Shown here: positions 1,724 to 58,349 of the stretch, one piece after another
How positions within the stretch are numbered: position 1 is the first letter of the stretch
How the letters are laid out: the number at the start of each line of letters is the position of its first letter
DNA from: Clavelina lepadiformis
Taxonomy: Eukaryota > Chordata > Ascidiacea > Aplousobranchia > Clavelinidae
Direction: 5' to 3'
Length of the DNA stretch: 64,000 bases
Assembly: GCF_947623445.1 (NCBI RefSeq)
Contig: NC_135242.1
Location: 620,001 to 684,000, forward strand
Made by a program: the position numbers and the translations under genes
The notes under the pieces: model-generated
What the model was told of the DNA's origin: nothing
The model's database searches: none
The model's input: the letters and a program-made list of their open reading frames with translations, nothing else

Positions 1724-3565
1724 TCAAGCCCCAGCATCAACTGATATTTTAAAGACAACAAGTTCGCTGGATGTCAGCACGTACATTCGTTCATTCGACG
1801 CAACAAAGCCTAGAATGTTGTCGTTGCTGTCCAGGGTTGCCACCTGTTGCACGGCCACTTTACCAATGACCTGTCCGGACGATCGATTCCGCAGAGATGT
1901 TGTCAGCGGCGATGGCTGTCGGTAGATGAAGATCCGGCGCTGACATTCGCACAACGCTACGTACGACACATCAGGGGCACAAGCACAGAATTTAAGGTTA
2001 GTCTTGGAGGCGTGCACGTACCCAAGTGCATTAAAGGTAGCGCGATGCTTCCACAAGCGCCTGTTTGTGCCATCGCTGGTTACCTGCGGCTGCCACACGA
2101 AAGCATCAACATCATGTCGAAATACAACACCAAGTGGTTCGTTAGCATCAAGAACGCAATTAAACAACCACCGTAAACTGCTGACATCAGCATGATGCGT
2201 GAAAGTTTCACTCACGCTATCGAATTTTGCGAATGAAGCTGAAGAGTCATAATACGAGTCACATTCCTCCAATTCTCCAGGTCGAAAGACTCCCTCGCCA
2301 GGATTCTCTGTACTCAATGTCTCGGATGTCAGATGCTCCAGCTGCTTGTGAACTCTGGCGACCTCTTCCGAGTCAAGTTCAAGTTCACCTCGGTCATCAT
2401 CTTCGACAACAGAGAACCAGGTGTGACCTTCGACGGACTTCTGGATGGTCACCTCCAAGCGACCATCAATGATGGACCAGTTGCTCTCTTCTGGAACAGC
2501 ATCATGACAAAGACAGCCGTCGAGGAGGATGTTTGGTTCTGCATCTTTGTCAGGACGAATTCCCACTTTGATCTTTCTTGAACTTAAACTGTAAACAACA
2601 GACTGTTTATTGGCTGCAGGAGGCAGATCAATAAATACCAACACATCTTCCTTTGTCTGCTTCCATTTATACGGTGCTGGAGGTTTTGTGTTTTTATCAT
2701 TTTCATCAACGCCTGACTGAACAATGTCGTTTATTTCTGGATCTGCTTCGGAATTCCAACCTGGGCTATATTTAAATGGTGAGCTTGAAGCGATGTGCAG
2801 CTCTGTGGAGTCTTTGGCCAGCGCACAATAATTAGGAACATTTTTGCCGCGGAAGAGCTTTGACGCAGAAAGTTGGTAATCTTCATCGTTGGTTGATTTC
2901 TCCAAAGTTATCCATTCCAGTAAAACTTCGGTGACTGTTTCTGCTCCTTTCTCTGGCTCAGGTGAAGATATTTCCTCAAATTTAATAAAAAGGCATTCCA
3001 AAAAGTCTCTCTTTACATCGTCAGCTCCATCACTTCGTGCAGCAGAGTTAATAATCAGCGAAGGACTTTTCTTAACTTCATCGAAGTAAACAATCCTCCA
3101 CACATCGGTCGTCCAGCTTGCTCTGCATCCCGTTTCGAGAACGTACATCGCTCCGAACCCATCGCATGACACGCACAGTGTCGGTGATGGAAAATAAACA
3201 CTAGGTGGCAGTCTATCAGTATCAACTGCAATCTCTGAGCCAAAACTGAAGACAACCTTTGACGGTTCGATGTGAGTCTCTAGAGGAATGTGAAACCTCC
3301 GAAGGCAGAAAGTAGAATCCACAAAATAAACATTTTCCTTGTTCCAAGGATCAAGAATCAGATAATTGTGTAAAGTGAAGCATTTTATTTTTTCATAAGA
3401 AAATTCCTCATCGCCCGCATTGACTTGATATACACCGTCGGGAATTGCAGCTTTGTATGATGGCAGCGGGTTTAATGACAACTTGTAAGATTCAAATTTT
3501 GAATCGATTAATTTACGATCTGGTCGAAGTTCCACCAACGCCGGCTTCTTCACCTTATCAGCCAT
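1724..3565 (-). CDS. NUDCD1: NudC domain-containing protein 1 (NUDCD1), intronless
   Basis: Single uninterrupted frame of 613 codons, starting MADKVKKPALVELRPDR; human NUDCD1 (CML66) is about 583 residues. A CS/p23-like NudC domain lies around residues 298-390 (PYKWKQTKEDVLVFIDLP, later VTIQKSVEGHTWFSV). N- and C-terminal regions match the remembered NUDCD1 pattern, including the C-terminal block with LGYVHASKTNLKFCACAP. The human protein is a Hsp90/Hsp70 co-chaperone-type factor linked to the DHX15 splicing helicase; here that role is inferred from family membership. Lack of introns between intron-rich neighbours could reflect an old retrocopy replacement or plain intron loss; the frame looks fully functional. 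Confidence 0.9.
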   Translation of the reverse strand: MADKVKKPALVELRPDRKLIDSKFESYKLSLNPLPSYKAAIPDGVYQVNAGDEEFSYEKIKCFTLHNYLILDPWNKENVYFVDSTFCLRRFHIPLETHIEPSKVVFSFGSEIAVDTDRLPPSVYFPSPTLCVSCDGFGAMYVLETGCRASWTTDVWRIVYFDEVKKSPSLIINSAARSDGADDVKRDFLECLFIKFEEISSPEPEKGAETVTEVLLEWITLEKSTNDEDYQLSASKLFRGKNVPNYCALAKDSTELHIASSSPFKYSPGWNSEADPEINDIVQSGVDENDKNTKPPAPYKWKQTKEDVLVFIDLPPAANKQSVVYSLSSRKIKVGIRPDKDAEPNILLDGCLCHDAVPEESNWSIIDGRLEVTIQKSVEGHTWFSVVEDDDRGELELDSEEVARVHKQLEHLTSETLSTENPGEGVFRPGELEECDSYYDSSASFAKFDSVSETFTHHADVSSLRWLFNCVLDANEPLGVVFRHDVDAFVWQPQVTSDGTNRRLWKHRATFNALGYVHASKTNLKFCACAPDVSYVALCECQRRIFIYRQPSPLTTSLRNRSSGQVIGKVAVQQVATLDSNDNILGFVASNERMYVLTSSELVVFKISVDAGA

Positions 3566-5979
3566 TTCCTAAATTTAGAATCAATCTGTAACACATTTGC
3601 TCAAATTTTAGTGAAAGCAACAAAATATTGCAGTGTAGGTCGTCTTTATTTTTGCATTCTGTCTTGAGAAATACCAAAAAACGGAATCATGAATTGAAAA
3701 TGACAAATTATGGAATTACATGGACCCACTGAGCAAGAGCAGATGGAAGAAGCAATTGCGGCCAGCGGTGCCAAAACGACACTCGACAGACCCGCAGGTC
3801 AAGGTGGTTCTAAAATGATAAGATTTAGCGACATAAATATGGTTTTGGTTGCGTTTCTTCATGTCACCCCATCGTGTGGCAGGCATTCAAGTTTCGAATG
3901 AACCAGAAGGTCACACTGCAGGACTCTTGGTGGGTGGTTATTGACATCACATAACACAATTTCCCAACAAAAATACTTCTCATGCAATGCACTACACGTG
4001 CACTTATAAAGTACAAGTTAAGTTCCTGGCCCTTTTCAACCAAGGTAGATAAACCACACAAAAATAAAGAAATATGGTAATTCACATCGCTATTATTCAT
4101 TCAGTTAAACTCAAACTTAGGTAAAGAGGCAACATTCTTAGATCAAGCAAGCATGTTAATGACGTCATTATTACTAATACAGGCGTATACTGATATTAGC
4201 ATGGTATCTGCAGTTATAAATAAGTTATGTTAAATTGATAATTGCACACCACAACAGAAAGCATGGAACTGCCCTCAACGCTTTTCAAGACTCTGCTTGG
4301 TGCAGAAAAATGTCTCTTTTTTTACCACCAACAAGAGGTTTAGGTTAGTTCTCGTTGCAGACTGCAACATGCACATTTATGCAGTACATTTATTTTACAC
4401 CCGGCACACCTCCAACAAGACATCTAATCAAATCGAGAAGTGCCTCCCATCAATCAATCAAACCATCCAGCCTGGGTGTAAAATCCGATATAATTTGCAC
4501 ACCTTATACCTGAAACTGTTGAAAGTAAAAGATCTTGAGAGAAGAAATTTTGTGTAAAGAAACAAAACTATTGGCATGCATTTTGCGACTGCACAGTCCA
4601 GACTGCAAAGTTTGGCATAAGGTGCACTCAATACCTGAATAACCTGCTTTTCATGAGTTTCAGTCAGTCAGTGCATTATTTCGCATCTAATGACTTGGAC
4701 AGAATTTCTGTGAACTTAACTTTTAACTGATTTAAAGACTGAATTAGTCAACGTGTGTACATTTCTGTGTAACTGCGCACCTAAGTGTTCAATTTCATTG
4801 CATCTAAGCTTTTTTGGTTGTTTAGCGCACCTAAGATCTTGCTGATTATAAAACGATCATACTCCACAGTCCTTAGTGGAAAGATTGGCGCCTGCATGCC
4901 TGATTTCGAGAAGAAAACTGTCGCACTTTTAAAATTTCCAAATTCGGTAACAGTCGGTATAATAGACGCTGCCTATCAAATTTATTCAAATTAATCTCGT
5001 TCAGTCTTTCTAGTTTTAATATAAAAAGTTATTCAGTCTTTCTAGTTAGACTATTAACATCAAAATATGCTCAAGTAGACAAGCCTTAAGCACTTAAACT
5101 AGCCTTAGGCCTAAGCATAAAAAACTTATTTCACTTGTGATACCAAAATGTACCACATGTGCCATTGTGTGGAAACATTCCTATACCCACTATAGGCCTA
5201 TACCTGCTTCGCAAAATAGTAACACAGTAAGAAAAGACTCTTCCAGTGTATACCGTAGTAATTACTGATGCTACTGTGACAACGTGAATAAATTTGCTGC
5301 ATTTGACAGTAAATTATAAGATCAAAGTCAATAATTTTAAAAGCAATTAAAAATATAACAAACGCAATTTCTGACATAAAAAAACTTTTTTGTCTGAAAA
5401 TAATTTCCAATGAAGTTATTCCTTCTATGAATGAGAACTACCTCAATAATTCATAGAAATCATATTCTTTCACAATTTAACAATTGCTTCCTTCCATGCA
5501 AACAATCAAAAGATGATGAAATATATTTATTGGAATAGTGCACCTTTAATTAAAATATGTGCGGATATTTTATGAAATGAAAATACAGCCGAAAACCATT
5601 TCATGAATCATGATGACACTTTACAAAAAATAACTAAGCAAAAATATTATTTAAGATTCCGTAATAGGCTTGAGAACATCACTGAGATGACAATTTATGG
5701 CACTTGCAACTTCCAACTAAAGATTTGCTGTTTACCATAAATGCAAAAGTTAAAGTTATCATTTCTTAGGTTTAGCAACAGTTGCTGGTTTTAGTTAGTT
5801 GAAGAGAAAAAATCACAGATACACAGCTATGGGAAAACGCCCAATAAAAATTTATGTTATATAATGAAATTACACATATGTCCTATTTACACCTCAAGAA
5901 ACTTTAAATAATTGCAATATAATAACTGCATGTGCATAGCATGTAAAAAATTACAAAACTAGTATTGGAACAAAGCAAA
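3566..5979. other. Intergenic, NUDCD1 promoter side to D2HGDH 3' end
   Basis: About 2.4 kb, AT-rich. It contains the NUDCD1 upstream region and a TGACGTCA octamer at 4160-4167. A short plus-strand open stretch at 3710-3840 starts with ATG and has codon-like composition, but no homology is recognised and no downstream exon is found. The rest shows no gene, RNA gene or clear repeat that I can support. Confidence 0.5.
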
Positions 5980-10495: not shown

Positions 10496-13161
10496 TACTG
10501 GACGCACGCATAGAAGCCTCTGCAAAATCTAATTCTACTTGGAGTAAGCTTTACTCCGTCACAAACACCGGCACGCTTGTCCACTTTATGCGACTGCAGA
10601 ACTCCGGTGCATTAAAATATAACAATTGATGACGGGAGTGTTTGCTTTGTGGGGAGTTACCCTGTGGCGATACAATCAAATAACACTTCAAAATTATTTT
10701 GTAGCTTTAAGGAGCGAAGTCCCAGTTTAATATCGACATGGGATGAAAGTTCATTCAGTGCCAGTGCCATTCTACAAGCTGAATGCGGGGGAAAAGGAAA
10801 CAGTACGAGTCAACTGATGCTGAATATATCTATATTAACAGTATATTTGACAAGTTGTCCCCAGGTTTCTCAGCTGGAGGTCTCAATGTTATTCGATAAC
10901 GTAACCTGCTCCATGGAACTGGACACGGGCTCTCAAGGAAGTTTTTTATCTGCGTCCATATGGGAGCAGTTGGCCAGTCCTAAACTGAGGAGACCAGACT
11001 TCAGCTACCACTTAGCTTCGTCTCACCCAATGCCTGTAAAAGGATGTTTAACTGCAACAACGGTGTCACCAACATCGGCTACGGAAGCAGATGTAACCTT
11101 CACGGTTTCAGCAATTCCCGGGCTCAACCTTCTCGACCGGGACGCAGCTAAAGAAATGGAATTTTCCTTAGCCCGCATGCTCTATCCCGTTGCAGTGTGA
11201 TGCCGACTCAACATAGTCACCGGTATCGAGATGCCCGAACAAGGTGGACTGAGCGGATACGAGCTGGAAGTGCAGTTTTAGGCCGATACCAAACCTATGT
11301 TCTGCAAACCAACATCAGTTCTGATAGTTTAGCAAGAGAACATCAACAAAGCATGAAACGTCGGGATTGCAAAGGGCACCTGGACACGAGCTATGTTCAA
11401 CTGTTGGGGCAGCCCGATAGTTCCTGTACGTAGAGCCTTGCTGCAAGGAGAATCCAAAGCTACAATTAAAGTTTTTGGAGGTTATTTCATCTCAGTCACT
11501 GGCCAGCTGGAAGCTCATCGCCATCTCCTACCACTTCCGGAAGAGTTACTGCGAAAGCTTGATAGATTCTGTTTTTCAAAGATTAACCTGGCTGACGTTC
11601 ACCATCAGATTGGACAAATATCTGGAGAGTGACAAGCGACTGGCTTTCAATAATTATCGAAGAGTTCTGCTGCAGAACTGCTTAACGTTCAGCATTTCTT
11701 CAGCCCATGAAGATTTTCATGCACAATATAGATGGTGGGTGACTTTAGTTGAGGTAAGATACAAGGGTAGATAATTTTTAACAAAGAATTTGTAACCAGG
11801 TTTATTTCTGAGATATCTGGCAGAAATATCCAAAATCCCAATCCCAAAATTTATCTTCAATTTTTGTTCTCTCAATAATGAGAACTCAGATAAACATGTG
11901 TTGAGGTTAAACAAAAGAATGTTGCTTATTAAGAATTTTATGCTGATTTGTGTTACAGAAAACAAAAATGTTTGGTTGTAAACAAGAACTTGTATATGAA
12001 AACAGTAATTCGTTGCACTACTTGTTACGCTGATAAAAATCTAGAATTTTAAGATTGTAAACAAAAGCACTATCTGTCAGTTAAACATTCTGGCCAACAT
12101 TACAGCGATCCGTCTTTTACTGTAGAAGTCTTTGTTCTGGTTCGTGCACTATCCTGGCACGTTGACCTTTGTGGCGTCATTAGAGGACTTGTGAGCTTAA
12201 ACTGTGATTGTGACTTAAACGTGATGCTTGGATCACCAGGACAACCATAACCAGCAATTCAACCATTGCAGACTTATGGACTTAAAGTTATACGTGGCTC
12301 CAACCGCCACTGGGTCATGCGGGATATTGTCATTTATGAAAATTGGTTTTCGGGAAACCGTTGTGTAAACCCATCCAAATACTAGTGACGTTCTGCACAC
12401 AGATTTCACATTGACACGTCATTAAAATGACTTGGATACAATTCTGTATGACACAGATTCTGCTCAGTAACTGTTGGTGATAAAAAGAAACAAAACTTCA
12501 GCTAATTTTTGTTGTTGTGTTGAGCGTTGATTTCAAGATAGGCTACATCGGTAGTTATCTAATAACATGATTCTCACAGTTTTTGTTGGCGATCGCAATA
12601 ATAATGGATGGAATTTATATATTCATGGAGATTTCGCATTTTTGTCAATGACAAGGAAAAGACAAACAAATAAATGATCATCAATCAATCATTTTATTTT
12701 TTGTCAAAAGCGCGGGGGGACGAAAAAAATCAAACCGGTTGTTACTGGCATATGCCAATGAACGGGAAAAGAAACAAAGCTTAAAAAAATAAGGTAATAG
12801 TTGTTGATAAGAACTAGCACAGCCACTAAACCTATAAAGTATGTTTTTATTTTATTCCAATCTTCCTTGTGATTTTATTCATTAATTGTTCGTGATCATG
12901 TGTTTTATTGTGATATAACTACAACGGTGAGCATCCTAAGTTTCGCTCCGCACAGTCAATGGCGATAAATAAACGGTACGATAATCTTGGGCGACTCTAC
13001 GCGACGCCATTTCGCTCAAAGTGTCTATTTTTACTTTCCGCTAATCGATTAGGCGCTGTTGGTTTTTGTGCAGTAGGTTGGAATTTCTCGATGATTCCGT
13101 GTCCAGTTTCAGGTGTGTCGCGTTTGCTTTAAGGTTCGCTTGGTTGTCTTAAAAATAGCCC
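10496..13161. other. Intergenic D2HGDH/NTPCR with retroelement remnant
   Basis: Divergent spacer between D2HGDH (minus) and NTPCR (plus), so it contains both promoters. The part from about 10.65 to 11.7 kb is a decayed retroelement, listed separately. From about 11.8 to 12.9 kb the sequence is AT-rich without a supported feature. The last 250 bp upstream of NTPCR are less AT-rich and probably hold its promoter and 5' UTR. Confidence 0.5.
10649..11740 (+). mobile_element. Decayed LTR-retroelement pol remnant (Ty3/Gypsy-like)
   Basis: A broken fossil on the plus strand. A retropepsin-like segment around 10.88-11.17 kb shows the aspartic-protease signature ELDTGSQGSF followed by a plausible flap and IPGLNLLDRDA region. 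A segment near 11.58-11.61 kb (KINLADVHHQIG) recalls the conserved KxDLxxAYHQI block at the start of Ty3/Gypsy reverse transcriptases. No LTRs, integrase or RNase H were recognised nearby, so only a fragment remains and it is broken in several places. Boundaries are approximate. It lies about 150 bp upstream of the D2HGDH start codon. Confidence 0.55.
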
Positions 13162-13719
13162 ATGCCTCGTCATCATATTTTTCTTACCGGTGTACCGGGT
13201 GTGGGGAAAACCACTTTAATTAAGAAAATTGTAAAAGCCCTCCAGGACAAAGGACGCATCTTGAACGGATTTTACACCGAAGAGTTGCGGGAAAACGGTT
13301 CCAGAACCGGGTTCGACGTTGTGAGCTTAGATGGATCGCGTTCCCCTCTGGCAAGAATACGGAAAGATGCAACTTATAAGAAACAACCCACGGTTGGAAA
13401 ATATGCTGTTAAATTGGATGAATTTGAAAGAACAGCGATCCCATTGTTAAAACACGAAGTAAGAGCTGACCGAAATGTCGTGGTTGTTATTGATGAAGTT
13501 GGAAAAATGGAACTATTTAGTAAAGTTTTCCAGAGCAAAGTTTCCCAATTATTAAATTGCAGTGAAGTTGTTGTTCTGGGGACAATACCAGTCAAGAAAA
13601 GTTTTCCCATACAATTTGTTGAAGAAATAAGACAAAGGGCTGATGTTAGAGTTTTTGAAATAACTTTTCAGAATAGAAATAACATTTTTGAAGAAATAAT
13701 AAATTCGCTTCTTGTTTAA
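13162..13719 (+). CDS. NTPCR: Cancer-related nucleoside-triphosphatase (NTPCR / THEP1 family), intronless
   Basis: Complete 185-residue P-loop NTPase (human NTPCR about 190 residues) that hydrolyses nucleoside triphosphates with broad specificity. Walker A is GVPGVGKTT at residues 10-18; Walker B is VVVVIDEVGKMEL around residues 106-118, the DEVGKMEL signature being diagnostic of the THEP1/NTPCR family. Other family blocks present are GFYTEELRENGSRTGFDVVSLDG and YAVKLDEFE, and a late VLGTIP segment. Both N- and C-terminus are intact and no intron is needed. The upstream ATG context has no competing in-frame start. Confidence 0.95.
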   Translation: MPRHHIFLTGVPGVGKTTLIKKIVKALQDKGRILNGFYTEELRENGSRTGFDVVSLDGSRSPLARIRKDATYKKQPTVGKYAVKLDEFERTAIPLLKHEVRADRNVVVVIDEVGKMELFSKVFQSKVSQLLNCSEVVVLGTIPVKKSFPIQFVEEIRQRADVRVFEITFQNRNNIFEEIINSLLV

Positions 13720-39500: not shown

Positions 39501-42500
39501 CCAGCCCAGGGAGGATTCTGAAGGTTTGTGACGTGTTGTTAAGAGTTTTATTGTGGCTCAACTTGTTACAACACGGTTTATAAAAATATTCTTTATTTTT
39601 AAATTATTTACCAGAATTTCATCGTGAACGTCAATTGATAAAATGTGAATTCAGGAGCAAAGTGCTTGTGGTTACGATTCATGTCGAAAACTAATATAAG
39701 ACCCAACACAGTAGAAAACTAACAATATCGTCAAATAAATCTTCATTCTACAAGTGTTTATATTTCTTCTCATCATTCCACGTTCTTTTTCTTTTCAGCT
39801 GTTCCTGACGTGCCCCCGACCAGCGAGGACGAGCTCCGTACGTTGAGCAACAAGGCGCAGCAGCTCAAGCGCGACATCTCACGGGAGCACAAGCGACACA
39901 CGAAGGAGCAAGGAAAAGCATCAGAAAGCTCCCCTGCGAAGAGCAGGAGGGAGGAGAGATTGAGGAAGAAGTTGGCGGAGATTGAAGCGAGGATCGTTCT
40001 CGCCGCCCCCGACCTCGCGCTCAGGATTTACCACATGCAGGGCAAGGTTTGTTCTCTCTTATCACGTCATTGTGACGTCATAATGTTTGTCCAGTTATAA
40101 TCAAGTGGTAATATTTTTCTCTCGCTCTTTGCACGGTAGGAAGAACGTCGTAAGGTAGGAAAGGTGTTTGCCTACTCGGTGAATGCATGTTGCAGTAGAC
40201 ATCATATAACGTTCATCCATTTGATGCAAAAGTCGACAAGTGTTTATGTTGTTTCTGTGGATGCAGCATCACGTCGCATCATCATAGTTTGATGACGCGT
40301 TGAACTAACACGTTGTCGTTGCTTGTTGGTGGCTTCAATGCCCTCTATAACATATGTAATATGTCAATGCTTGCTGACTGATGTAACGACTGGTTAGCGA
40401 TGGAACTAAATTACTTGGCACGAAATATGTGTTTGTGCAAGCATCAATATCATTTGACTGCTCGCTTAGAATAAAACATTCTAAACTCATTTAATATTGA
40501 GACAAATGATGTTCCAGTGCTACATGTTCCTCATGTCGTCCGACTACGAAAGAATCGAATGGACAGAGGCGATTATGAAGCAACAAGAGTCCTGTTTCAA
40601 GTCATTCTCCCTCACCTCGTTTGAAGTCAACCTTCTGCTTGCAACATGCGTCAGGCAACGCAAGGTACCCGCTGCATGTACCTAGTCGCACACATACAAA
40701 ACCTCATAACAACTTGTTCCTTTGTGTAACATCTATACTTGGACCGGGCTTGAGTATATTTGTAGGTACTGATGGCCAGACTCTTTGACTGATGACTATA
40801 TAATTATAATTAACTGATGCTCTTACAGCAGATCAGACATTTTTTTATCCCACAAATAACATGATCTGCTTCTTAATTGACATATTTGTATGAAGATGAA
40901 CACAGCTGGGTCGATGTTCATGAAGGAGGAGGAAGATTTATTGTCTGGATACCTCAACGTCACAATACACTCAGGGCAAGGCTTTCTACGAGCATGCAGT
41001 AAGTTGAAGCTCGTTGCCTAATCGCGACATAGTTGACGTCATCGTTGATTTGCGCAGTTCACTTCCTTGTTTTAACGTCATTGCATCTGCTGCGTTCGTT
41101 TCAACTTTGACCTTCCTCGTGTCAGACCCCTACTGCACGCTCGAGGTCGACTCGTACGGTCAGTTCCAGACCAAAGCGAAAACACGTCCCTGCCACGACA
41201 CAAAGGACCCGGTCTGGGACGAAGAATTCGAGATTGACGTCGATGGCGCCATGACCTTGAGAATCCTCTGCTACGACCGCGCGCGAGAGGCGTCAGCCGG
41301 TGCCTCCTATGACGACGATGTGCTTATCGCTAAAGGAAAAGTTGGAGTGAGTTGTTGCCGTGGAAAGTTAAGACGAGTGATTGAAGCAGATAGATTGCAA
41401 CTATAAGTAGCTGTTTAAGTTTATTTCATACACTCGGTGGCGCTTCAGTGTTCTTCCGTTAGTTTGTTAGGTTTTAACTTTGACGACCGCTTAGAAATTT
41501 TTAGAGATTGTGACTTTTAAAGACCAACTGCTAATTTTCTACTGTAACTACAGAAGCTTTAAGCTTTAAGGGACCGTTTCGGTCGCGCAGAAAAATCTTC
41601 CAAAATCCACAGTTTCCATAAAACATGAAACCAATCCACGTAATAGCTCGGGTTAATTTCAAGACAGAGACATGATATAGTTATAGTAGAACTCATCAAA
41701 TGCAATCAAGCATGGATTTGACACTTCATTCTCCCTATGCTTAGTTGATCCAAGAATCGCTCCGGGATAAAGGGGAGTGGAAGGAGGAGAGCGTCCTCAT
41801 GAACGAACTTGCCATCCGTGTTTCGGTCAAGTTCACGCCGAGAGAGCACAGTCTTCAAAGGTTGCCCTCCAAGAAGCAAAATGGTGCCTTTGGAGTCAAG
41901 ATTGAAACCGTGGCCAAGTATGTCTCCTATGCTGCCTAGTTCCACCAATATAAGGCTATAACTGAAAAATGTGTTTGATAAACGTGGGGTCGCCAAACTC
42001 TTGCAACTTCCATGCAAGCCATGGAGGAGGTGTTCCTCATTCTACTCCACTCGTCATCGTTAAAATCTTCTTTTTTGAAGGCGAGATAGCTCCGGGATCC
42101 CGAGCATAGTCCGGAAGTGCGTTGCGGAGGTTGAGAGGCGAGGGATGAACGAGGTTGGAATTTATCGCGTGTCCGGAGTAGCATCCGAGATCCAAGCTCT
42201 GAAAGCATCTTTCGACACGAGTAAGTATTGTATTGTTATAATATTATGAAGTCATAATTCAGGTCCTGTTTGTTTATTATGACGTCACTTTCCCGCAGAC
42301 CGCAAGGACGTTGCAGTTCTACTCAACGAGGTTGACGTCAACGCTGTGGCCGGAGTTTTAAAACTTTACTTCCGCGAATTGCCGGAACCTTTGTTCACAG
42401 ACGCCAGATACGGGTGATTATGGTTTATTAACTTTTATGCCAATCATATCGGGTCCACATTATTACGTCATAATGCGTTACGTTTATGTCGTTTCTTTTT

Positions 42501-44692: not shown

Positions 44693-46651
44693 TCATAACC
44701 TTAAAGCGGATATGACCTTCTCACTCAAAGTTGGCATTGTGGTGTCACGTGATAACGTGATTATCAATGTTGAAAGTTTAATTTTCCAGCTGTTCTCAAT
44801 GCAAGGGTCAAGTTTAAATTCAAAAATCTGCTCAAACCTACCCACGCTTTGTGTGCCTTGGTGCAATTGCCTGTACAGGACACCACAGACACCCACTTTT
44901 GCCACGTCAGGTGCTTTCATAATGGCTTTGCGACCGCTAGGAGTGTCGTTTGTGTTGAAACAAAATTCATCTTGCTTGGTTATGTTTTCCAGAGCTTGGC
45001 GAGTCTCCTCAGGCCCTGAGCAGGTGGTCGTTGAGCTTTCTTCGTTTTCGTTGTTGCGGAAGACACAGGAAAATTTGCACCCCGGCAGGAAGATGTCGCT
45101 CTTCCATTCTCTCGAAGAAACTTCACTGTTAAGTGAGTTGAGCATCGGATAGAACCAACTAACGAATTCCGCTGAAATGTCTCGGCTCCCATCTGGCATT
45201 ACGTCACTAACTAAAAACGCCGAATCTCTATCAGCTTCCCTCCCTTCTGTTGAAGTAGATGCCTGTACGTAACAAAGCCAGTAAGCATAGAGATCCTATA
45301 TTATTCAAAGAAACATGGCGAACCACCAAAAACCACAAACACATTGCTCATCGCAACAAAGCACGCCGATGCATTTACTATACTAGAGAGACTAGAGAGT
45401 ACATAAACGTAAACCGAGAAAGGAAACGATTGAACATGCTGAATTTTGTGATAAACGTTGGTTTAGTTTTGTCGTTAGTTTCAGGACATGAACGAAATCA
45501 TCGCAAACGTAAAATTATATCTTTGTATAAGAAGATTGAAATGATAAAGATTGTTTCTTGATGCGATCAATCTGTTGGCGCAAGAGAAATGTTGCCGGAT
45601 TCATTTAAGGATAAATTCTGGGAAAATGCTCAAATAAGATAAGGATATGGACAAAGATAAGATTATTACAAAACTAGCATTGATACGAATCAGAAATAAA
45701 CGAAGGAAATCATAGCAGGCAGCTTACGTCATGATCATTTCCCGTTTCTTGCCGGCGTCTTATATAATCACTAAAACGCCGAATCAACTTCGCTTTCGTT
45801 TCTTGAAATGTAAAACTTCGATATCCCTAAAATTACAGGCATCGGAAGTTAACCCAACAAAAATAATTTCCCGAGGTAACAAAAAATTAGAAAATAATAT
45901 AACAAAGACAAAGGTTAGATTTTGCCGAAGCACACATTTTGTTTTCTGGCTTGCTACCCTTTGGTATAAAAATTTGACAATGACATTTTTGTGGATTCTT
46001 TTCCTCTCCAACAAAGTCTTCACATTTTCTGCGTAATCCAAAATAATTGAAATAGATTCTGTAAAATATAAAGCGCAGGGTTCTCAAACTCATATTGCTC
46101 TGAAGGTCAAATGAAGACTTCTAATTTAACCGGAGAGTCGCAATACAACCATATACATATGCATATTTACAGCCACTAACATATGCAAAACACACACAAA
46201 TTACACAATACACATTAAGAATAACATTATATATTCTAATTAAAGGTAACACAATAAGATCGCTTTAAAAATGTTTTATTGCAATTTTTTATTGTAAGAC
46301 TTCTTAATTTTATAAACAACTTTGCGGCGCTTAAAGAGTAAATTGTTTATTATTTGAAAATTCCAAAATAAGCAACAACGCCGGTCGGGTGTTTGAGACC
46401 CTTGACGTCATAAAGCAAGTTACGTGTTTTACAACCTAAACTCAATGTAAAAATCAGCTCCTGGTATGATGGACCACCAATTGCGTAAAAGCAACATTAT
46501 ATTTAAAAAAACGGGCTACTCAGACCGTACCCTCTCTTGTTCCTGCAACGATGCTGTTGTTAGTTGTGGTCTCTACTAACAGATTTAAAACCGAGTCGTC
46601 AAGTTGGTTTAAAAGTCGCTCGCACACCAGCCTTGCAACGCCTTCAATCAT
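44693..46651 (-). CDS. C3orf38: C3orf38-like (DUF4518) protein, copy A
   Basis: Member of the C3orf38 family, whose C-terminal part is NTF2-like; molecular function is poorly known and I assign none. Exons on the minus strand, genomic order: 44693-45262, 45728-45826, 45958-46058, 46531-46651, summing to 891 nt, 296 residues (human about 329). Family blocks: MIEGVARLVCERLLNQLDDS, SIIL DYAENVKTLLERK, EFVSWFYPMLNSLN, then VAKVGVCGVLYRQ, FEQIFEFKLDPCIENSWKIK. These match the remembered human [34 protein letters not shown] and VENTWKIKF. Compared with copy B, the two short middle exons are not found; exon 3 is extended by six codons and joins the last exon in phase. Frame looks intact. Head-to-head with copy B at 50.1 kb. 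Confidence 0.82.
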
Positions 46652-47041
46652 GATTCACTTTCGTTATTACCTATTGTTGCGCCTTGACACCGGAAAATCA
46701 GATTATGAAGATTTAAATTTGTCTCTACATAACAATTTAAGCCAACACATGATTGGCTTGGGAAGGTCACCAACACACGAATTAATAAAAAACTCATTTA
46801 GATATCACAGTGACAAGAGTTTTGCTTTTTGATTCATAAGAACCAGATCGTAAACAAATCCTGTGATGAATTTTCCTTCACTTTCTGCCACTGCAACAAT
46901 GTCTTTACATCTTTTGAGCTGTTCAAAACAATTCAAATGGCTTCTGATACCCAAAAAACAAAAATCCTTCCTTACAGGCTCTGAGACTCTCACTGTGAGA
47001 GTTGGGGCCACTATCAAGCTTATATAGTCTCTGATGGTGAG
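46652..47041. other. Upstream region of C3orf38-like copy A
   Basis: The first roughly 90 bp (46652-46740) form a 5' block shared almost exactly with the third exon-1 copy and partly with copy B (GGCGCAACAATAGGTAATAAC on the coding strand). Beyond it a 71-codon minus-strand open stretch (46805-47017) has protein-like composition (VRVSEPVRKDFCFLGIRSHL) but no recognised homology. Confidence 0.5.
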
Positions 47042-47517
47042 TGTTGTCGCGATAGCCTGAATACCTTTGTTACGACTCCTCTCTTTTGATTATTTCGTCG
47101 TTTGATGTCATCATTAGTTTGCCAGCTTGAGCAAATATACCCAGCCTGGGAATTGTGTTTACAGAGAGCTGATTCCTAAGTGGGATGCTGGTAGGTTATT
47201 TATTTACAAGTCATCGTAAATATGATAATAGGTGCAGCGAGGTTAGGTCACCTGTCATTTACTTGTATTGTTTTATCGCTTCTATGATGTGATAATTGTT
47301 TGTGCACGTCACACTCAGTACGTTTAAATGCTGATTGTTTCATTGTGTTTAATTCTAATTATTTGTCCGTTTAAATTATCTCATGTTTCTCACCTTTCGT
47401 TTTCTTATCTTCAACTTCATCCTTGTTGTGTAACTTGCGTGCTGTAGAAACCTTAATTGAAAGATTTGAGATGTTCAGTTGGGTTTGGTCGCATGAGAAG
47501 AAATAAAATTACTCTTT
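47042..47517 (+). repeat. LTR-like dispersed repeat, copy 1
   Basis: About 476 bp, starting TGTTGTCGCGATAGCCTGAA and ending AAATAAAATTACTCTTT. A direct-orientation copy lies at 52087-52570 with clearly high but imperfect identity. TG start, internal AATAAA close to the 3' end and the length suggest a solitary LTR of an LTR retroelement; no internal coding region lies between the copies. It abuts intron-1 sequence of the third C3orf38-like exon copy. A target duplication is not obvious. Fossil, moderately old. Confidence 0.55.
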
Positions 47518-47540
47518 ATATCCCGTTACTTTGATCATAC

Positions 47541-47992
47541 CCGGTCTCGCTGCTACAACGATGCTGTTGTTAGTTGAGATACCGTAAAACCTCTATTTGA
47601 GCGCCACCTCTAATAGAACACCACTTTTAGCGGCGGAATTGTATTAGCAGGTCTCTTGATTTTAACCAGTGAATTTGTGATTACTTACCAGTAATCACCC
47701 TGTATTGGTATATTTTCTAATTACCTGTATATACCGGTAAATGTGTTTGGTGTTTTTTCTTTTCATTAATAAACTTTATTTCAAAATTCTGACCAGCTAG
47801 TCGAAAAATAGAGCGCCAACCTCTAATTGAAAGTCACCTCTAATAGAACGCCACTTTTAAACAAGAGTTGAAAAATAGAGCGCCATGGCGGTGAAATAGA
47901 GGTTTTACGGCATCTGCTAAGAGCCTTAAAACCGAGTCATCAAGTTGGTTTAAAAGTTGCTCGCACACCAGCCTTGCAACGCCTTCAATCAT
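47541..47992 (-). pseudogene. Solitary third copy of C3orf38-like exon 1, interrupted by a MITE
   Basis: On the minus strand the start codon region and exon 1 of the C3orf38-like gene recur (MIEGVARLVCEQLLNQLDDS), with the exon-1 donor and the first bases of intron 1 (GGTATGATCAAAGTA) as in copy B. The exon is split by a 329-bp transposon at 47582-47910. No later exons are found downstream on this strand, where an LTR-like repeat follows. It is therefore a partial duplicate, not a gene. Confidence 0.85.
47582..47910. mobile_element. TA-inserting MITE (CCGTAAAACCTCTATTT termini)
   Basis: A 329-bp non-autonomous DNA transposon with terminal inverted repeats CCGTAAAACCTCTATTT at both ends. Subterminal GAGCGCCA / TAATAGAACGCCAC motifs repeat inside. 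It is flanked by TA on the left and CA (probably a mutated TA) on the right. Copies A and B of the host exon give the unoccupied site (GAGATATCTG in copy B), which proves insertion. TA duplication and this terminal style fit the Tc1/mariner (pogo-like) superfamily. Confidence 0.8.
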
Positions 47993-48703
47993 ATCTCACT
48001 TTCGTTATTACCTATTGTTGCGCCTTGACACCGGAAAATCAGATTATGAAGATTTAAATTTGTTTCTTTCTTCTTTTCTTTTTCTTTTTACTTGCAGCAA
48101 CAGAATCCTATCTACACTATGTGTCCCGACCCTGCACACAGTCATAGCAAAACGTGGCGTACAGTTGCACTGATTGCTGTAGAAACTTGAAATTTGGTGA
48201 CTCTTTCTAAAAAATGTTTAGCTATCTGTCTATGTTTGTTTTATAAAGTTTGATTTTGTAATTTTTGAGATATTGTCATAATTTTCATAATTTTGCTCTC
48301 TATCCGCATTGAAGCGTATCGTTTTCGTTTACTCAATTACGCACCACTAACTCGACTAACTATTCTCTTGCGTTCTCTTCTCGCGGTCAGCTGGTTTTCC
48401 GCACAGCGGGGGCGCGGCGTAAAAAGAAAAACTTCTAGAAATGTATTACTTGTAGAAACACTTAATTTACACTAAATGCACTTTCTTTAGTTTTACAATT
48501 ATGATGTATACAGGAAACCAGATGTTTTTGCTACTAACCTGTAAAAATCCGATCAGTTTACGACGTATAGTTTTCGAGTAATTAACGATTGAAAATTTGT
48601 GTGCAGTGTCGGCCACACCTAGTTAAAGTAGTAATGTCGCGCACCCGGTTTAGATAAGGTTAAATAAGTTATTGAAGATTAATTAAATATATTGAATAAG
48701 ATA
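47993..48703. other. Spacer within the duplication block
   Basis: The first about 70 bp repeat the conserved 5' block of the C3orf38-like copies; after a pyrimidine-rich tract near 48060-48100 similarity stops. The rest shows no supported gene or repeat. Confidence 0.45.
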
Positions 48704-49164
48704 CAGTGAGACCTCGTTAATCCGAACCCCGAACAACCGGATTCCCCGTTATCCGACACAAAACTGCCGGGAACGGATTTCTTCCTATGCATTTTACCCC
48801 TTTACTCCAGAAACCCCGCTGTCCGACTCCGACACAAAAGTTTTGGAACAATTTTGCAAATCAATAGCAATAAAATCCGATAAACCGGTCTATTAAGAGT
48901 GAAGCGAAAATGATTCACGATTGTCCTAGATACAGTAGTTTGTTGACGAAAACATTAGTCGATTATTTACGCATAATAATGTTGCAGTTTCATTCTTTAA
49001 ACTCCTACGCATACTTTGAATTGGAGTAAGGTGCATACTGCTTTTTGAACACGGTGCTACATTTGCAAGATTGATTGATTTTTCACTTTCCAATAATCCA
49101 GATACCCCGCTAAACCTACATTTTATGACGAAACAAAGTGGTCCGGATTAACGAGGTCTGACTG
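48704..49164. mobile_element. pogo/Tigger-like MITE
   Basis: A 461-bp element with termini CAGTGAGACCTCGTTAATCC (left) and, read from the right end, CAGTCAGACCTCGTTAATCC. It is flanked by perfect TA dinucleotides (48702-48703 and 49165-49166). Internal pieces (GTTATCCGACAC, CTGTCCGACTCCGACAC) have the style of pogo-class (Tc1/mariner) termini. No transposase coding is present. Confidence 0.82.
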
Positions 49165-49523
49165 TATATTAAATCGTGGAGTGTATTAGTTACTATTTAA
49201 CCAACAGCCTCTAGCTTGTGTATGTTTGCTCAAGGACGCCAGCGACGAGGTTGGAATGCAAAACAATCAAAAGTGAAGTATCGTGTCAGGATCGCCCTTC
49301 GCCGTTTTTGATTCTTTCTCCCTGCAATGTCGGTTAGAAAAGACTTTTGTCTCCGAACAGTTTCATTCCCTGGAATGTTTGGCAATAATGTATAATAACT
49401 TGATAGTGATTTATATCGTTGTTCAGCTGCCGCGAGTAGAAAGGGAAGGAAAAGAAGAATGAGACCGGTTTAAAGCTTCATAAGTTGTTTTTCCAGTGTC
49501 AAGGCGCAACAATAGGTAATAAC

Positions 49524-50111
49524 TAGGGCGATTATTTTTTGACTTGTCAAAAAAAGTCAAAAATTTGTCGAATTTACAGCGTTAGGTCAAAAATGGTCAA
49601 ACTTGTTTAAAAAGTCAAAATTTTTTACCAAGTTAAAATTGTTTACAAACTGCATTGTCGTGGTGTCATAGAGGTTGCACTAGTAGGTGAACTTGTCATT
49701 TTACATTGTACACCTTGCAGCTTATTTTATACTGTTATATATGGCCCATTGTCTACTTATTGTGAATCAGCTCTTGCTTCGGTTTTGCTTTAGATACTTC
49801 ATGTATCTTTAGTTTAGACAAATGTATTGAACAGTTTTTGTTGTGTCTTATTTGCAGTTTTTTTGGCAGTGATTCGTAATTAGCTCATTTCCCTTTTCAG
49901 AATAGGCTAGGTCTGTGTTCAGATTTTTGCTCTTCTTTACTACAATAAATTTTAACTTTTTGTATAATAATGCCTAATTTAACTACTTGATTTCTTCATA
50001 GGCTTACGTCAAAATTTGTCAAAAAAAAGTTTTTTTATCTCAAAATTTGTCGAAATTTTCAATTTTTAGGTCGAAAACTTTCGTTTTTTAGGTCAAAAAA
50101 TAACCGCCCTA
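49524..50111. mobile_element. hAT-like MITE in the 5' UTR of C3orf38-like copy B
   Basis: A 588-bp non-coding element with terminal inverted repeats TAGGGCGATTATTTTTTGAC / TAGGGCGGTTATTTTTTGAC. It contains several internal GTCAAAAA-type repeats. It splits a 5' block that is continuous in copy A and in the third copy (AATAGGTAATAACGAAAGTG). GTAATAAC on the left and ATAATAAC on the right are consistent with an 8-bp target duplication, fitting hAT. It lies only about 20 bp before the start codon of copy B, so it probably forms most of that gene's 5' leader or promoter. Confidence 0.75.
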
Positions 50112-50133
50112 ATAATAATAACCAAAGTGAATC

Positions 50134-51875
50134 ATGATTGAAGGCGTTGCAAGGCTGGTGTGCGAGCAACTTTTAAACCAACTTGATGACTCGGTTTTAA
50201 GGATCTTGGCAGATATCTCAACTAACAACAGCATCGTTGTGGCATCAAGACCGGGTATGATCAAAGTAGCGAGATATTAACTTAATGTTGCTTTTATTCA
50301 ATTGATGTTCTTTTATACCAAGAAGTGTTTCCATTTTTGGTTTTAGTGTTAAAGTGAGTCTTGCTTTGTGCTCTACAGAGGCCATTTCAATTATTTTGGA
50401 CTATTCAGAGGAGGTGAAGACTTTGCTGGAACGACAGAAAATGCAGAGGAATTATCTCACACAATTTTTTCACACGCAGGTTGCGCATCAGAAAACAAAT
50501 CCGTTTGTTTGTTTCTTTAAAATCTCAACGTGCTTCGTTGTCGATGTATTTTGTTTTGTGTTAGCTCCAAAGTAGCTCCTTGTGTAAAATTGTTGTGTAG
50601 CATTGCGTTGTGACGTAACCAAGTCCGATTGCTACAATTTTAGGGCGTTCGAAATTTGTCTAAAGAAACGAAACCGAAGTTGATTGAGCGTTTCCTGGAT
50701 TACATCAGACGCCAGCAGGGAACTGTAAGTCATTATGACGTAGGTTGTGTCTGTGTTTGCTGCAATTTTCCCTTGACCTGGTTTTGAAATCTTAATCTCA
50801 TTCATTTTTATTCATAATCATGATTTTTTTTACATCTTTTTCAGCATTCATCGACAAGTGAACCCAGAAATGTCCCCCTTGCACTACCAAATGCACCGGC
50901 CCCCATGGTAGGAAATAATCCTAATCTCATATTTACGTGCTAGTTACAATTTGTTTAATCGTTCGTAATATTAAGTTGAAGTTCAATCGTCAAGTTAATA
51001 TTTAACTTAGAGCTTCGGTGCTACTTCCATGACATTCGCACAACCTGTCGAAGGATTTGAAGACAGTCATAAGGTGAATATTTTTTAAATTTAAATATTT
51101 CAACTTCAAATGACAACGACTGTAAACTATAGACTTCGTTCGTTATACGTGTAGTTCATGTGTAAACAATTTTCTGTTTATCGGTGCAACGATATGTTCT
51201 GTTATGAATAACAGTGTCGTTCTGATTTTGAGTGATTAAAGCCATGTTTATCTAATTACTAAGATGTTTATGTTTCGTCACGGGCAGGCGTCTACGTCAA
51301 AAAAGAAACATTCTCGGTCGACAAGTGAAAACAGATTTGCATTCTTTGCAAACGTTGCTGACGTAACACCAGAGAAGGATGACGTCATGTCAGGGGAATT
51401 CGTTAGTTGGTTCTATCCGATGCTTAACTCACTTAACGGGGGAGATGCCTCGAGAGAATGGAAGAGCGACATCTTCCTGCCGGGATGCAAGTTTTCCTGT
51501 GTCTTCCGTAACAATGGAAAGGAAGACGGAAGTTCAACGACGACCATCTGCTCAGGACCTGCCGCCACTCGAAAAGCTTTCGAAGACATAATGAGGCAAA
51601 ATAACTTGTGTTTCAACGCAAATAACACTCCTAACGGTCGCAAAGCTATTATGAAAGCACATGATGTGGCAAAAGTGGGTGTGTGCGGTTTGTTGCGCCA
51701 GAGCTCGCAACTAGGCACACTAAGTGTTGGTGCATTTGAGCAGATTTTTCAACTTAAATTCAGCCCTCACATGCACACCTGGAAAATCAAGTTATCAGAA
51801 CTGACAATGACGTCATCGAGTAAAAACAGCATGCCTACCTTGAGTGAAAACGCCCTGCTCGCTCTGAGATCATAA
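50134..51875 (+). CDS. C3orf38: C3orf38-like (DUF4518) protein, copy B
   Basis: Six exons: 50134-50254, 50379-50479, 50644-50724, 50845-50907, 51011-51073, 51288-51875; the sum is 1017 nt, 338 residues, close to human C3orf38 (about 329). N-terminal helical part MIEGVARLVCEQLLNQLDDS, ILDYSEEVKTLLERQ, then NLSKETKPKLIERFLDYI (human region with VHAILAYSQSAEELLRR is similar). A variable serine/proline-rich linker covers exons 4 and 5. The C-terminal NTF2-like domain has EFVSWFYPMLNSLNGGD, DIFLPGCKFSCVFRN, KVGVCGLLRQ, GAFEQIFQLKF and TWKIKLSELTM. About 70 percent identical by eye to copy A over the last exon. This copy keeps the fuller exon set and is probably the more ancestral structure. Function unknown. 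Confidence 0.87.
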
Positions 51876-52086
51876 TCATTACGTCATCATTTGGAAGGTT
51901 TTTTTTATTGCGTCATCGTAATATCCCACTAGCGGTTACAACCTTCAGTTGGCAGTGTAGTCAATCAACAAAATTTTAGAGTCTTATTTCGTACAGAAGT
52001 GCACCACCAAGTCAAAGTGGTATCACTCGTTGATAAGTCTGCTTTTAAGCCTACAACCGTGTTGTACAGTATACTCTTATTATGAA

Positions 52087-52570
52087 TGTTGTCGCGATAG
52101 CCTGAATACCTTTGTTACGACTCCTCTCTTTTAATTATTTCGTCGTTTGATGTCATCATTGGTTTGCCAGCTTGAGCAAATATACCCAGCCTGGGAATTG
52201 TGTTTACAGAGAGCTGACTCCTGAGTGGGATGCTGGTAGGTTGATTATTTACAAGTCATCGTAAATATGATAATAGGTGCCGCTTAGTTACGTCACTTGT
52301 CATTTCCTTCCATTGTTTTACGCTTGTATGCCGTGATAATTGTTTGTGCATGTTACAGTCAGTACGTTTAAATGCTGATTGTTTCATTGTGTTTAATTTT
52401 AATTATTTGTCTATTTAAATTATCTCACGTCTGGCACTTTTTTCACCTTTTCACGTTTCACGTCTATCATTTCATCCTTGTTGTGTGCTGTAGAAACCTT
52501 AGTTGAATGATTCCGAATGATTAGTGTTCGGTCGGGTTCGGTCGCATGAGATGAAATAAAATTACTCTTT
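52087..52570 (+). repeat. LTR-like dispersed repeat, copy 2
   Basis: Direct repeat of 47042-47517, about 484 bp, same orientation, with matching TGTTGTCGCGATAGCC start and AAATAAAATTACTCTTT end; here CA follows, giving a TG...CA span typical of LTRs. It lies about 210 bp downstream of copy B of the C3orf38-like gene. Likely a solitary LTR fossil. Substitutions and small length differences between the copies point to separate, not very recent insertions or an old duplication. Confidence 0.55.
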
Positions 52571-54377: not shown

Positions 54378-54834
54378 CATGTAAGTCATTGAATTTAATT
54401 TGTACCTTAATTGAGGTTTGTTCGCAATACGCACGAGGTAAATCAACGTGTACGCCAAATTTTTTTTATCTTCATGATGAATTATAATAAACAAACAAAG
54501 AATTAAAGCTTGAGTGCACGCCATCGTACCAAAATTATTGTTTTTGCACACACGAATTCAAATCGAAAACTGCCATACTTTCCAGTCAAGGCAACTAGAA
54601 ATTGAATGTAATAGGTAAAGCAGCTTGTTTAATGTCAGAACCAGGAACAGAAACGCGTGATTATACGTGCAATTAGAAACATTCACAATCATAATGTGAG
54701 TTATATTAATTGGCACACCTGTCAATGACGGTGGCATAGCACAAAAGTACCTTTTATTGAAGATGACGTCTCATTTTTTAACGCCAGGCTTTTTAGGTTT
54801 TGCTTGAACACAAAGTTTGATTATATTAGCTGTT

Positions 54835-56025
54835 ATGGCAAAATCAAGCAAACTCACTGATGCGGAAAGGCACAAACTTATTGAGAAACTTAACAAAGAA
54901 ACTGAGGAATTTATCAAGGAAAGGCAGGAAAAAAATAAGGATTACGTCTACAAGGACGGATTCACAGATGAAAACATTGATGAAATATTAGCAACACATC
55001 CCGCGTTTATGAAATCGCAGCCAACTGCAGAAGAAATTGAAAATAATCCTCTCCTTAAAGGTCTCCAAATGATACAGTATGACCCGGATGACACCCCCTA
55101 CGAGAAGGCAATGGCTCATAAGAAAGACGGCAATTTTCAGTTCAAATGCAAACAATACAAGAGAGCTTGCTTGGCTTATACAGAAGCTATTAAAGCGAAA
55201 TGTGACGACAATGACTTGATGGCAGTCCTGTACACGAATCGCGCCGCGGCAAACTTTCGTCTTCAAAACTATCGATCGTCGTTGCTGGATGCAACTTATG
55301 CGGTGAAGCTCTCACCGGAACGAGTTAAGTCATTACTCCGTTGCGCTCATTGCTGTGAGGCGATGAAACGGTACGATGACGCGATGGACTGGTGCAAGAT
55401 TGTTCTCAGCCTGGATGAGGAAAACAAGGAAGCGGCAGAAAGTTTAGAAAATTGCTCCAAGCTGAAGAAAGTATCTGATCGGGATAAACGTAAAGAAGAG
55501 TTATCAAAAGAGAAGACGAGAAAACAAAATGTTCTTTTGCTGGATACGATTAAATCCCACGGTGTGCAATTAGATGTCTGTGAAATTGCAGATGATGATG
55601 ATGAAGTATCCACGGTGATTTCTATGTTTCAATCGCACGGAGAAAATAACGTCAAAGTTCACCTCAATGTGGACAATGAGCTTGTGTGGCCGGTGTTCTT
55701 TGCTTATCCTGAGTTTCAAATCACCGATTTTATTGAACAATTCAATGAAAGTTCCACTTTTTTCGACCATCTTTGGATGATGTTTGATAAACCAGCTGAT
55801 TGGGATGTCAAAGGTCATTACACATCTGAGCATCTTGTTGCTTTCTATGAAAATGTAGGAAGTAAAACCTTGTGTAAAGCTCCTTTGTACTCCACCCTAC
55901 GTGACGTTCTCTCTCGCAAAACTTATGTTGTGCATTATGGAACGCCTAATTTCTTCATATTGTCAACGAAATCAGAGTTTTACAAAAGTTTTGTATCCAA
56001 ATGGAATTCTGTTGAATATGCATGA
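54835..56025 (+). CDS. TTC4: Tetratricopeptide repeat protein 4 (TTC4), intronless
   Basis: Co-chaperone of Hsp90/Hsp70 (yeast Cns1 family). The ATG at 54835 gives 396 residues (human 387); no ATG lies upstream in this frame close by. Three TPR units cover about residues 80-205 (AMAHKKDGNFQFKCKQYKRA, YTNRAAANFRLQNYRSSLLD, SLLRCAHCCEAMKRYDDAMD), followed by a charged helix (KKVSDRDKRKEELSKEKTRK) and the conserved C-terminal wheel-like domain (LVWPVFFAYPEFQITDFIEQ). The N-terminal HPAFM and LKGLQMIQYDPDDTPYE segments are also family hallmarks. Complete. MNAT1 follows on the same strand 331 bp downstream. Confidence 0.95.
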   Translation: MAKSSKLTDAERHKLIEKLNKETEEFIKERQEKNKDYVYKDGFTDENIDEILATHPAFMKSQPTAEEIENNPLLKGLQMIQYDPDDTPYEKAMAHKKDGNFQFKCKQYKRACLAYTEAIKAKCDDNDLMAVLYTNRAAANFRLQNYRSSLLDATYAVKLSPERVKSLLRCAHCCEAMKRYDDAMDWCKIVLSLDEENKEAAESLENCSKLKKVSDRDKRKEELSKEKTRKQNVLLLDTIKSHGVQLDVCEIADDDDEVSTVISMFQSHGENNVKVHLNVDNELVWPVFFAYPEFQITDFIEQFNESSTFFDHLWMMFDKPADWDVKGHYTSEHLVAFYENVGSKTLCKAPLYSTLRDVLSRKTYVVHYGTPNFFILSTKSEFYKSFVSKWNSVEYA

Positions 56026-56356: not shown

Positions 56357-58349
56357 ATGGATGAATTGTCGTGTCCAAGATGTCGAATGACAAAATACAG
56401 GAACCCGTCACTGCGCTTGCTGATAAACGCGTGTGGACATGCACTGTGTGAGGCGTGCGTTGAACTCGTCTTTACGAGAGAGTCAGCACCTTGCCCCGAC
56501 TGTGGTCGCTCTCTCAGGAGAAACGACTTCAGAATGCAGTTGTTCGAAGATACAAGTTGGTTTTCTGACGTATTTCTATCATAAAATCTTTGCATAAAGA
56601 TGTGTTGATTGTGCTTTAAAAGCATTTTTTGTGTTGAATGCTATAATATAATTGTTCTATTATTAATCATTATTTCTGATACAAATGTAACTCAATTGAT
56701 TTTATTGTGACTGGTTTCAGGAGTTGACAAAGAAGTTGACATAAGGAAAAGTGTTCTGAAGATTTACAACAAGCAAGAGACAGATTTCAACTCACTTAAC
56801 GAATACAACGACTACCTAGAAGTAATTGAGGAAATTGTTTGGAATCTTGAGAGCGGGAAAAATGAAAAAGAAACCAAAGAGCGAATTGCTTTGTACAAGT
56901 AAGACTCGAAGAACTACGTATGTTGTTTCTATGGGACGGATAACAAAATTTAAATAAATAAATAAAATAATATAGAAAATAACAAAAATTTTAAGCCCCG
57001 TAGATAAGTAACGTGACAGCGAGGCTAATAAAATACATGGATCACGTTATGGCGAGCAAGGAACTCTAACTGCTCCGTCACCAAGACAACAAATTACTTT
57101 ACTCATATTGCAAACCTGGTTTCATACCTAATACATGGTTTCATTCCAATCTAATCAGGCAATTATTTTATCTGGAAATATGTCTTCGCGCAAACCAATT
57201 GCTGTATTCAAATGATTTTTTAAAACTCTAAAGAGTATCGACAATATCCGCCTGGTTTCATCTTTCTATCAGGCAGTGGTATTCTTAAGCGTGGCCTTAG
57301 TACTGTCTAATGCTCTATAGCAGTTTCTCAAACTAATATTAACATAATTTCAATGAGCATGGCAGGTTGCTATTAGGACTGAATGGAAACCAGATGGAAT
57401 TTTTTTTCTTTGTATAGTAGAAGGTGTAATTTGAGCTTTGAAATTGCTGGAGAGGAACTGATTAAAACTGTGTTAAAAATTGTAAAAACAAATTTTGTAA
57501 AAGAAGTAAAAATGAATTTACCACTTGTGACTTGTGCAATGAACCACAACATAGAAATAAGTTCAGTGCACAAATGCATCTTGCAAAATTGTGATAACAC
57601 TTTATAGTTTTGACTTAAATTGCTGATAATTAATAAATCGTTGAAAATTTAAACATATTGCAGTTTTATGTGAAAACTGTGAACGCAATCATCATCGAAC
57701 CAAGATCACAAACGTGAAATAAATTTTTTTATAGAATATGAGAGAGAATATCTTTTGTAATCTTTCCAGACAGGAGAACGAGCCTCAGATCCGTCGGAAC
57801 CAGGTCCGCATCACCCAGGAGAGGAGCTACTTCAAGGAGCAGGTTGCTCAGGAGGCAAAGGAGCGGGAGTTGCGTGCTCAGATGCTCCGTCAGATTGATA
57901 AAGAGGCGGATGCTGCAAGGAGGTTGGGAGAAGAGAAGTTGTTGAATGACCTCGCAAAAAACTCTTCCTTGTCATCAGCTGAAGTGCTGGAACGACACCG
58001 CAAGTTAAAACTGGAGGAGGAAAAAACGAGGAATATTTCCTCCCTGGAAGAGCGCATGTCCATCGGAGGCTTCAACAATGAAGCGGACGACGTAATCCTT
58101 TCAAATCGCGCAATTCCAGAATCCGAGAAGACATTCAAGCACACACCCATGGTGGTGGACATAACAGGGCCCAGTATGCCGAACAGAAACGCCATATTTG
58201 AATCCGGTTATCTCCGGCACGTGCGTGAGGCCAGACTGCAAGACTTGGGCGGCGGATACACCAGTGTCCTGGCTTGTGAGAGAGCACTATATGACGCGTT
58301 CGGTGGATTATACTTCAGCCCTGCAAGCACAGCGCACGGGGTCATGTGA
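56357..58349 (+). CDS. MNAT1: CDK-activating kinase assembly factor MAT1
   Basis: RING-finger subunit that stabilises the CDK7-cyclin H complex and anchors it to TFIIH. Three exons, 56357-56555, 56721-56898 and 57770-58349, total 957 nt, 318 residues (human 309). The C3HC4 RING has C6, C9, C26, H28, C31, C34, C46 and C49. Next come [20 protein letters not shown], a long charged helix region (residues about 130-220) and the C-terminal hydrophobic domain with [20 protein letters not shown]. An AATAAA pair at 58402-58407 and shortly after, just past the stop, likely ends the transcript. The 870-bp second intron holds no supported feature. Confidence 0.95.

Follow-up and report, generated by a model that had tools for sequence, protein, structure and literature searches.

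Genes of the DUF4518 (C3orf38) type occur more than once at the locus studied here, which raises the question of how the copies arose, which of them still work and what role they keep. We analysed the window, i.e. the whole stretch of 64,000 nucleotides (G000:C3:620001-684000), and the genome searched comprised 209,060,895 bases in 95 contigs.

Gene models and copy number

A reading of the sequence alone had claimed that two intact DUF4518/C3orf38 paralogues stand head to head, and had suggested comparing both proteins with the DUF4518 Pfam family. The claim was borne out by two closed gene models, and the comparison by a family match for both proteins. The genes of the pair are divergent, with ATGs at 50134 (plus strand) and 46651 (minus strand) lying 3.5 kb apart. 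The plus copy (50134..51875) has six exons (50134-50254, 50379-50479, 50644-50724, 50845-50907, 51011-51073 and 51288-51875) and a closed frame of 338 aa. The minus copy (44693..46651) has four exons (46651-46531, 46058-45958, 45826-45728 and 45262-44693) and a closed frame of 296 aa. All eight introns, five in the plus and three in the minus model, are bounded by GT/AG. Neither intact copy resembles a processed (retro) copy, since introns are kept in both. The plus protein matches PF15008 with an E-value of 4.4e-46 and 157.7 bits (profile positions 6-270 of 271) and the minus protein with an E-value of 3.7e-51 and 174.4 bits (positions 6-269 of 271), for a curated cut-off of 27 bits. Both match the profile over nearly its full length; what may set them apart is that two copies share one locus, and the linker of the minus copy is shortened. 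We take the human member of PF15008 to be C3orf38.

A translated search of the whole genome with the plus protein gave 10 matches for 10 candidates, and the PF15008 profile, at E-values up to 1, gave 4 matches for 6 candidates. All of these fall at the same locus, and no DUF4518 match was found outside it in 209 Mb by either search. The family thus appears to be confined to this locus in the assembly, which agrees with the local amplification claimed earlier, and the start-codon region was rightly counted as present three times (ATGs at 46651 and 47992 on the minus strand and at 50134 on the plus strand). Within the portions available of the open-access literature on C3orf38, DUF4518 and gene duplication in Clavelina lepadiformis, no account of a duplicated C3orf38 was found. 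Among viral contigs, 56 pattern matches were obtained as candidate outgroup relatives of the DUF4518 genes, none of them confirmed.

The sequence-only reading had also described two full exon sets with closed frames. The closed frames hold, but the sets differ, with six exons in the plus and four in the minus copy. Exon 1 (121 nt) and exon 2 (101 nt) have the same length in both, the last exons measure 588 nt (plus) versus 570 nt (minus), and intron phases are equal for exons 1-3 and the last exon. Exon 3 is 99 nt long in the minus copy versus 81 nt in the plus copy, a difference made up of one extra codon and a donor shifted 15 nt downstream. The minus model is devoid of exons 4 and 5. No clear counterpart of exon 5 was found; minus intron 3 aligns with plus exon 4 and still has the CAG acceptor, but 16 codons on it runs into a TGA, and the aligned place lacks a donor (the alignment was computed and the translation read by eye). 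In view of this decayed stretch, an original absence of exon 4 from the minus copy was rejected. The ancestor probably had exon 4, which the minus copy would then have lost.

Constraint on the intact copies

Over 294 aligned codons, the plus and minus copies show a dS of 0.58 and a dN of 0.27, giving a dN/dS of 0.47 (95% bootstrap interval 0.34-0.66). As 37% of 2000 bootstraps reach 0.5, this ratio alone is compatible with one relaxed copy. For the C-terminal part (plus residues 180-338) the ratio is 0.40 (0.25-0.64), and 18% of bootstraps reach 0.5. Differences in exon 6 are distributed as 42, 43 and 67 over codon positions 1, 2 and 3 (chi-square p 0.019), so that position 3 is favoured; the signal is weak in exons 2-3 (19, 12 and 26, p 0.076), and exon 1 gives no signal of constraint (4, 7 and 6, p 0.66; dN/dS 1.2, CI 0.40-6.1).

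Neutral drift was simulated with uniform substitutions, neither selection nor indels, and 400 runs per copy and distance. At a distance of 0.05, 11% of plus and 9.5% of minus frames stayed free of stops, and at 0.1 these proportions were 1.5% and 4%. None of 400 survived at distances of 0.2 and 0.29, the observed dS of 0.58 corresponding to about 0.29 per lineage. The open frames at this distance suggest that, for the greater part of their time apart, both copies were very probably under selection; a recent loss of one copy is compatible with this.

Such a loss is the core of the first competing explanation, in which only one gene works and the other copy gave up its role too recently to have acquired a stop. 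A dN/dS of 0.47 is close to the expectation for one constrained and one free copy, and features of both copies fit: an insert of roughly 590 bp, ending 20 nt before the plus ATG, parts this ATG from the upstream sequence that the plus copy shares with the other two, and linker exon 4 is missing from the minus copy. However, both frames are open at a distance where simulated drift closes them, both proteins score far above the Pfam cut-off, and plus residues 180-209 combine a dN of 0.065 with a dS of 0.23, although the interval of this ratio is wide (0.06-1.1). We therefore consider a single working gene unlikely, and prefer two genes that both remained protein-coding.

The third copy and the 5' ends

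Exon 1 of the third copy lies on the minus strand at 47541..47992, where it runs from 47992 to 47912 and resumes at about 47581-47541, being split by an insert at 47582-47911. A tblastn search with the plus protein gave two matches, one 96% identical over 27 aa and the next 72% identical over 18 aa, the latter extending past the exon end; at the DNA level, 47912-48010 and 47515-47581 are 94% and 91% identical to the plus copy. This exon 1 had been described as solitary, which did not hold, as a decayed exon 2 is found downstream on the same strand (46852..46944, read from 46944 to 46852). It matches plus exon 2 by blastn at 73% over 71 nt (E 1.2e-5 in a 9.5-kb region), and its fourth codon is a stop in frame (TGA), the translation reading EAI*IVLNSSKDVKTLLQWQKVKEN... 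By tblastn it matches the plus protein at 48% over 31 aa (E 0.005) and the minus protein at 40% over 25 aa (E 0.20), and 67 and 63 of 98 nucleotides are identical to plus and minus exon 2, respectively. When both proteins were compared with the window by tblastn, intact copies aside, exon 3 and the later exons gave no hit at E <0.1; a match to the last exon at 47468-47412 is at chance level (E 4.9). On these sequence features, the third copy reads as a dead gene fragment, made of an exon 1 split by a MITE-like insert and a decayed exon 2.

Similarity between the copies is unevenly distributed. For the intact pair, dS is as low as 0.13 in exon 1, but it reaches 0.57 in exon 6 and 1.22 when exons 2 and 3 are pooled, exon 2 by itself being saturated; the contrast of exon 1 with the rest gives a Fisher p of 3.5e-4, calculated on rounded counts. 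Identity between the plus and minus copies is 88% before the ATG and 86% within exon 1, drops to 74% in early intron 1 and 64% in exon 2, and stands at 76% and 75% in exons 3 and 6, with 71% over the 35 nt that follow the stop. We then considered, with gap columns dropped, alignment columns in which a single one of the three copies is odd. Upstream of the ATG, the plus copy is odd in nine columns, the minus copy in none and the third copy in four. The first 53 nt of exon 1 contain one variable column among the three copies; beyond this point the plus copy is odd in three columns, the minus copy in 19 and the third copy in three, and all differ in two. When the 32 columns with an odd plus or minus copy were permuted, 1 of 100,000 shuffles was as extreme, for a test chosen after the alignment was seen. 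The simplest reading, and to our mind a fairly probable one, is gene conversion, with a tract common to the minus and third copies that would end in exon 1. As the comparison covers three sequences without an outgroup, differences in rate, such as a relaxation in front of the plus copy once the insert had arrived, are also to be considered, and the same patchwork could come from a plus upstream region and a minus exon 1 that changed faster.

The three 5' ends could instead have stayed alike through selection on their sequence, as a promoter or signal, which would fit the first 53 nt of exon 1, where a single column varies. This explanation is doubtful, because the third copy shares the similarity though dead, synonymous divergence in exon 1 is low as well, and upstream noncoding states common to the minus and third copies are absent from the plus copy.

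It has also to be asked whether the third exon 1 belongs to a dead copy at all or serves the minus gene as an alternative first exon. It sits on the strand of that gene, 1.3 kb upstream, and the context of its donor is similar to that found at plus exon 1. Yet its own decayed exon 2 follows it, and its coding part is split by the 330-bp insert, which makes such a use very unlikely. Least credible of all is an assembly artefact, i.e. a mis-join or retained haplotype behind the inverted arrangement, as the window contains no N bases, the inverted copies lie within one 25.7 Mb contig, they are about 25% different in exon 6 and carry different insertions, and, if the genome is that of C. lepadiformis kaClaLepa1, which was covered 117-fold by HiFi reads from DNA sheared to 12-20 kb (PMC10884593), the sequenced fragments exceed the 7.9-kb locus.

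Repeats and neighbouring features

Four repeat insertions had been proposed at the locus, and all four have relatives elsewhere in the genome. The insert inside exon 1 of the third copy (47582..47911, 330 bp) is MITE-like, with terminal inverted repeats. At least three other places carry it with 99% identity over 321-322 nt, and at least 94 pieces match it, with 40 of 81 candidates scored; this identity suggests that its insertion was probably recent. Another MITE-like insert with terminal inverted repeats is located between the copies (48690..49172) and has relatives at 39 or more places elsewhere, 87-92% identical along most of its length, with at least 42 matching pieces (40 of 548 candidates scored). 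The third MITE-like insert is the one that precedes the plus copy (49525..50113), its edges and inverted repeats having been read by eye; its end (51-66 nt of the query) recurs in at least 37 places outside, with at least 41 matches (40 of 154 candidates scored). This insert may have displaced the plus-copy promoter or taken its place. The last one (46078..46406) lies within intron 1 of the minus copy and is an older repeat, with partial matches at 69-85% in 15 pieces and 10 places outside the locus (11 candidates scored); its termini are presumably hAT-like.

A further block of 489 bp (47029..47517, plus strand, opposite to the third-copy gene strand) lies between exons 1 and 2 of the third copy. 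It is 85% identical, in the same direction, to a partner that flanks the plus copy on its 3' side (52074..52570, plus strand), the end of which, 52570, is the right-hand edge of the region described in the sequence-only reading. Four genome-wide matches were obtained for this block, namely the pair itself and two short fragments (71 and 81 nt) at 78-79%. With only two substantial copies in the genome, both at the locus, a dispersed transposon was ruled out, and the block would be part of a local rearrangement or a very-low-copy element. An AATAAA read in the sequence near the end of the partner block suggests that the latter is possibly the 3' UTR of the plus copy. Among the matches scored, those of this block and of the four dispersed inserts fall on contigs C1 to C9 only.

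Other features were observed in the window. To the right of the pair, an open frame of 405 aa (54808-56025, plus strand) resembles the TTC4/Cns1 co-chaperone (Wheel domain E 1.6e-19, plus TPRs), and 57735-58349 (plus strand) contains a piece of MAT1, the CDK-activating kinase assembly factor (MAT1 C-terminal anchor E 2.1e-19). To its left, a C2-domain piece was detected at 41008-41406 (plus strand, E 5.5e-08). An open frame of 186 aa (13159-13719, plus strand) covers the full NTPase_1 profile (PF03266, E 3.3e-53), and one of 614 aa (1724-3568, minus strand) carries a CS domain (E 8.4e-14), which we take to be NUDCD1-like. An open frame of 194 aa (10616-11200, plus strand) matches aspartyl protease families weakly, below cut-off (E 0.0016), and is possibly a retroelement piece. 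Searching the whole window against Rfam at gathering score gave no match.

History of the locus and role of the family

Birth-and-death evolution of local gene duplicates, accompanied by gene conversion, is a known general process. The intact pair, the decayed third copy and the patchy similarity of the 5' ends are what this process leaves; the present case differs by its small scale, two genes and a fragment. We take the event for a local duplication of an ordinary kind, with birth-and-death. The full history that we regard as likely is a local duplication giving an inverted working pair and a decayed third copy, the 5' ends being exchanged later and the ancestral role retained. A DUF4518/C3orf38-type gene would have duplicated locally, giving two working genes placed head to head and one copy more. 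The intact pair would have stayed protein-coding for most of its separate history while diverging moderately; the minus copy would have lost exon 4, ending with no recognisable exon 5 in its linker and with its frame kept. The 5' ends (about 75 nt upstream and the first half of exon 1) would have been exchanged between neighbours by gene conversion after the original duplication. The third copy would have decayed to a dead remnant and then been hit by a MITE-like element.

As to function, PMC11954569 assigns C3orf38 to a STRING cluster labelled NTF2-like and lipocalin, and PMC9576728 counts it as one of the nine most understudied in a set of 347 potential selectively essential genes. In the open-access C3orf38 literature consulted, no established mechanism was found. 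An AlphaFold2 model of the part encoded by exon 6, built with only two sequences, had a mean pLDDT of 31.5 and was too poor to compare, and the single match of the minus protein to PDB sequences (best E 0.85) was taken as chance.

The amplification had been suggested as a possible mark of new function. The analysis does not directly support this, and the dN/dS of 0.47 fits mild constraint on both copies or one relaxed copy. Most likely, both proteins keep the ancestral C3orf38 role, with redundancy or a division of expression. Conversely, the roles may have split, the minus protein having gained a distinct activity or partner with the loss of exon 4 and the shortened linker, and repeated conversion keeping both N-terminal starts alike; we hold this to be improbable. 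If it were true, the pair would offer a natural two-paralogue system for dissecting C3orf38 function. The two diverged copies show which parts tolerate change (the linker and several C-terminal stretches) versus those that changed least between the plus and minus proteins, EFVSWFYPMLNSLN and SREWKSDIFLPGCKFSCVFRNN. This distinction between tolerant and little-changed stretches could serve as a guide for mutagenesis of C3orf38-type proteins.
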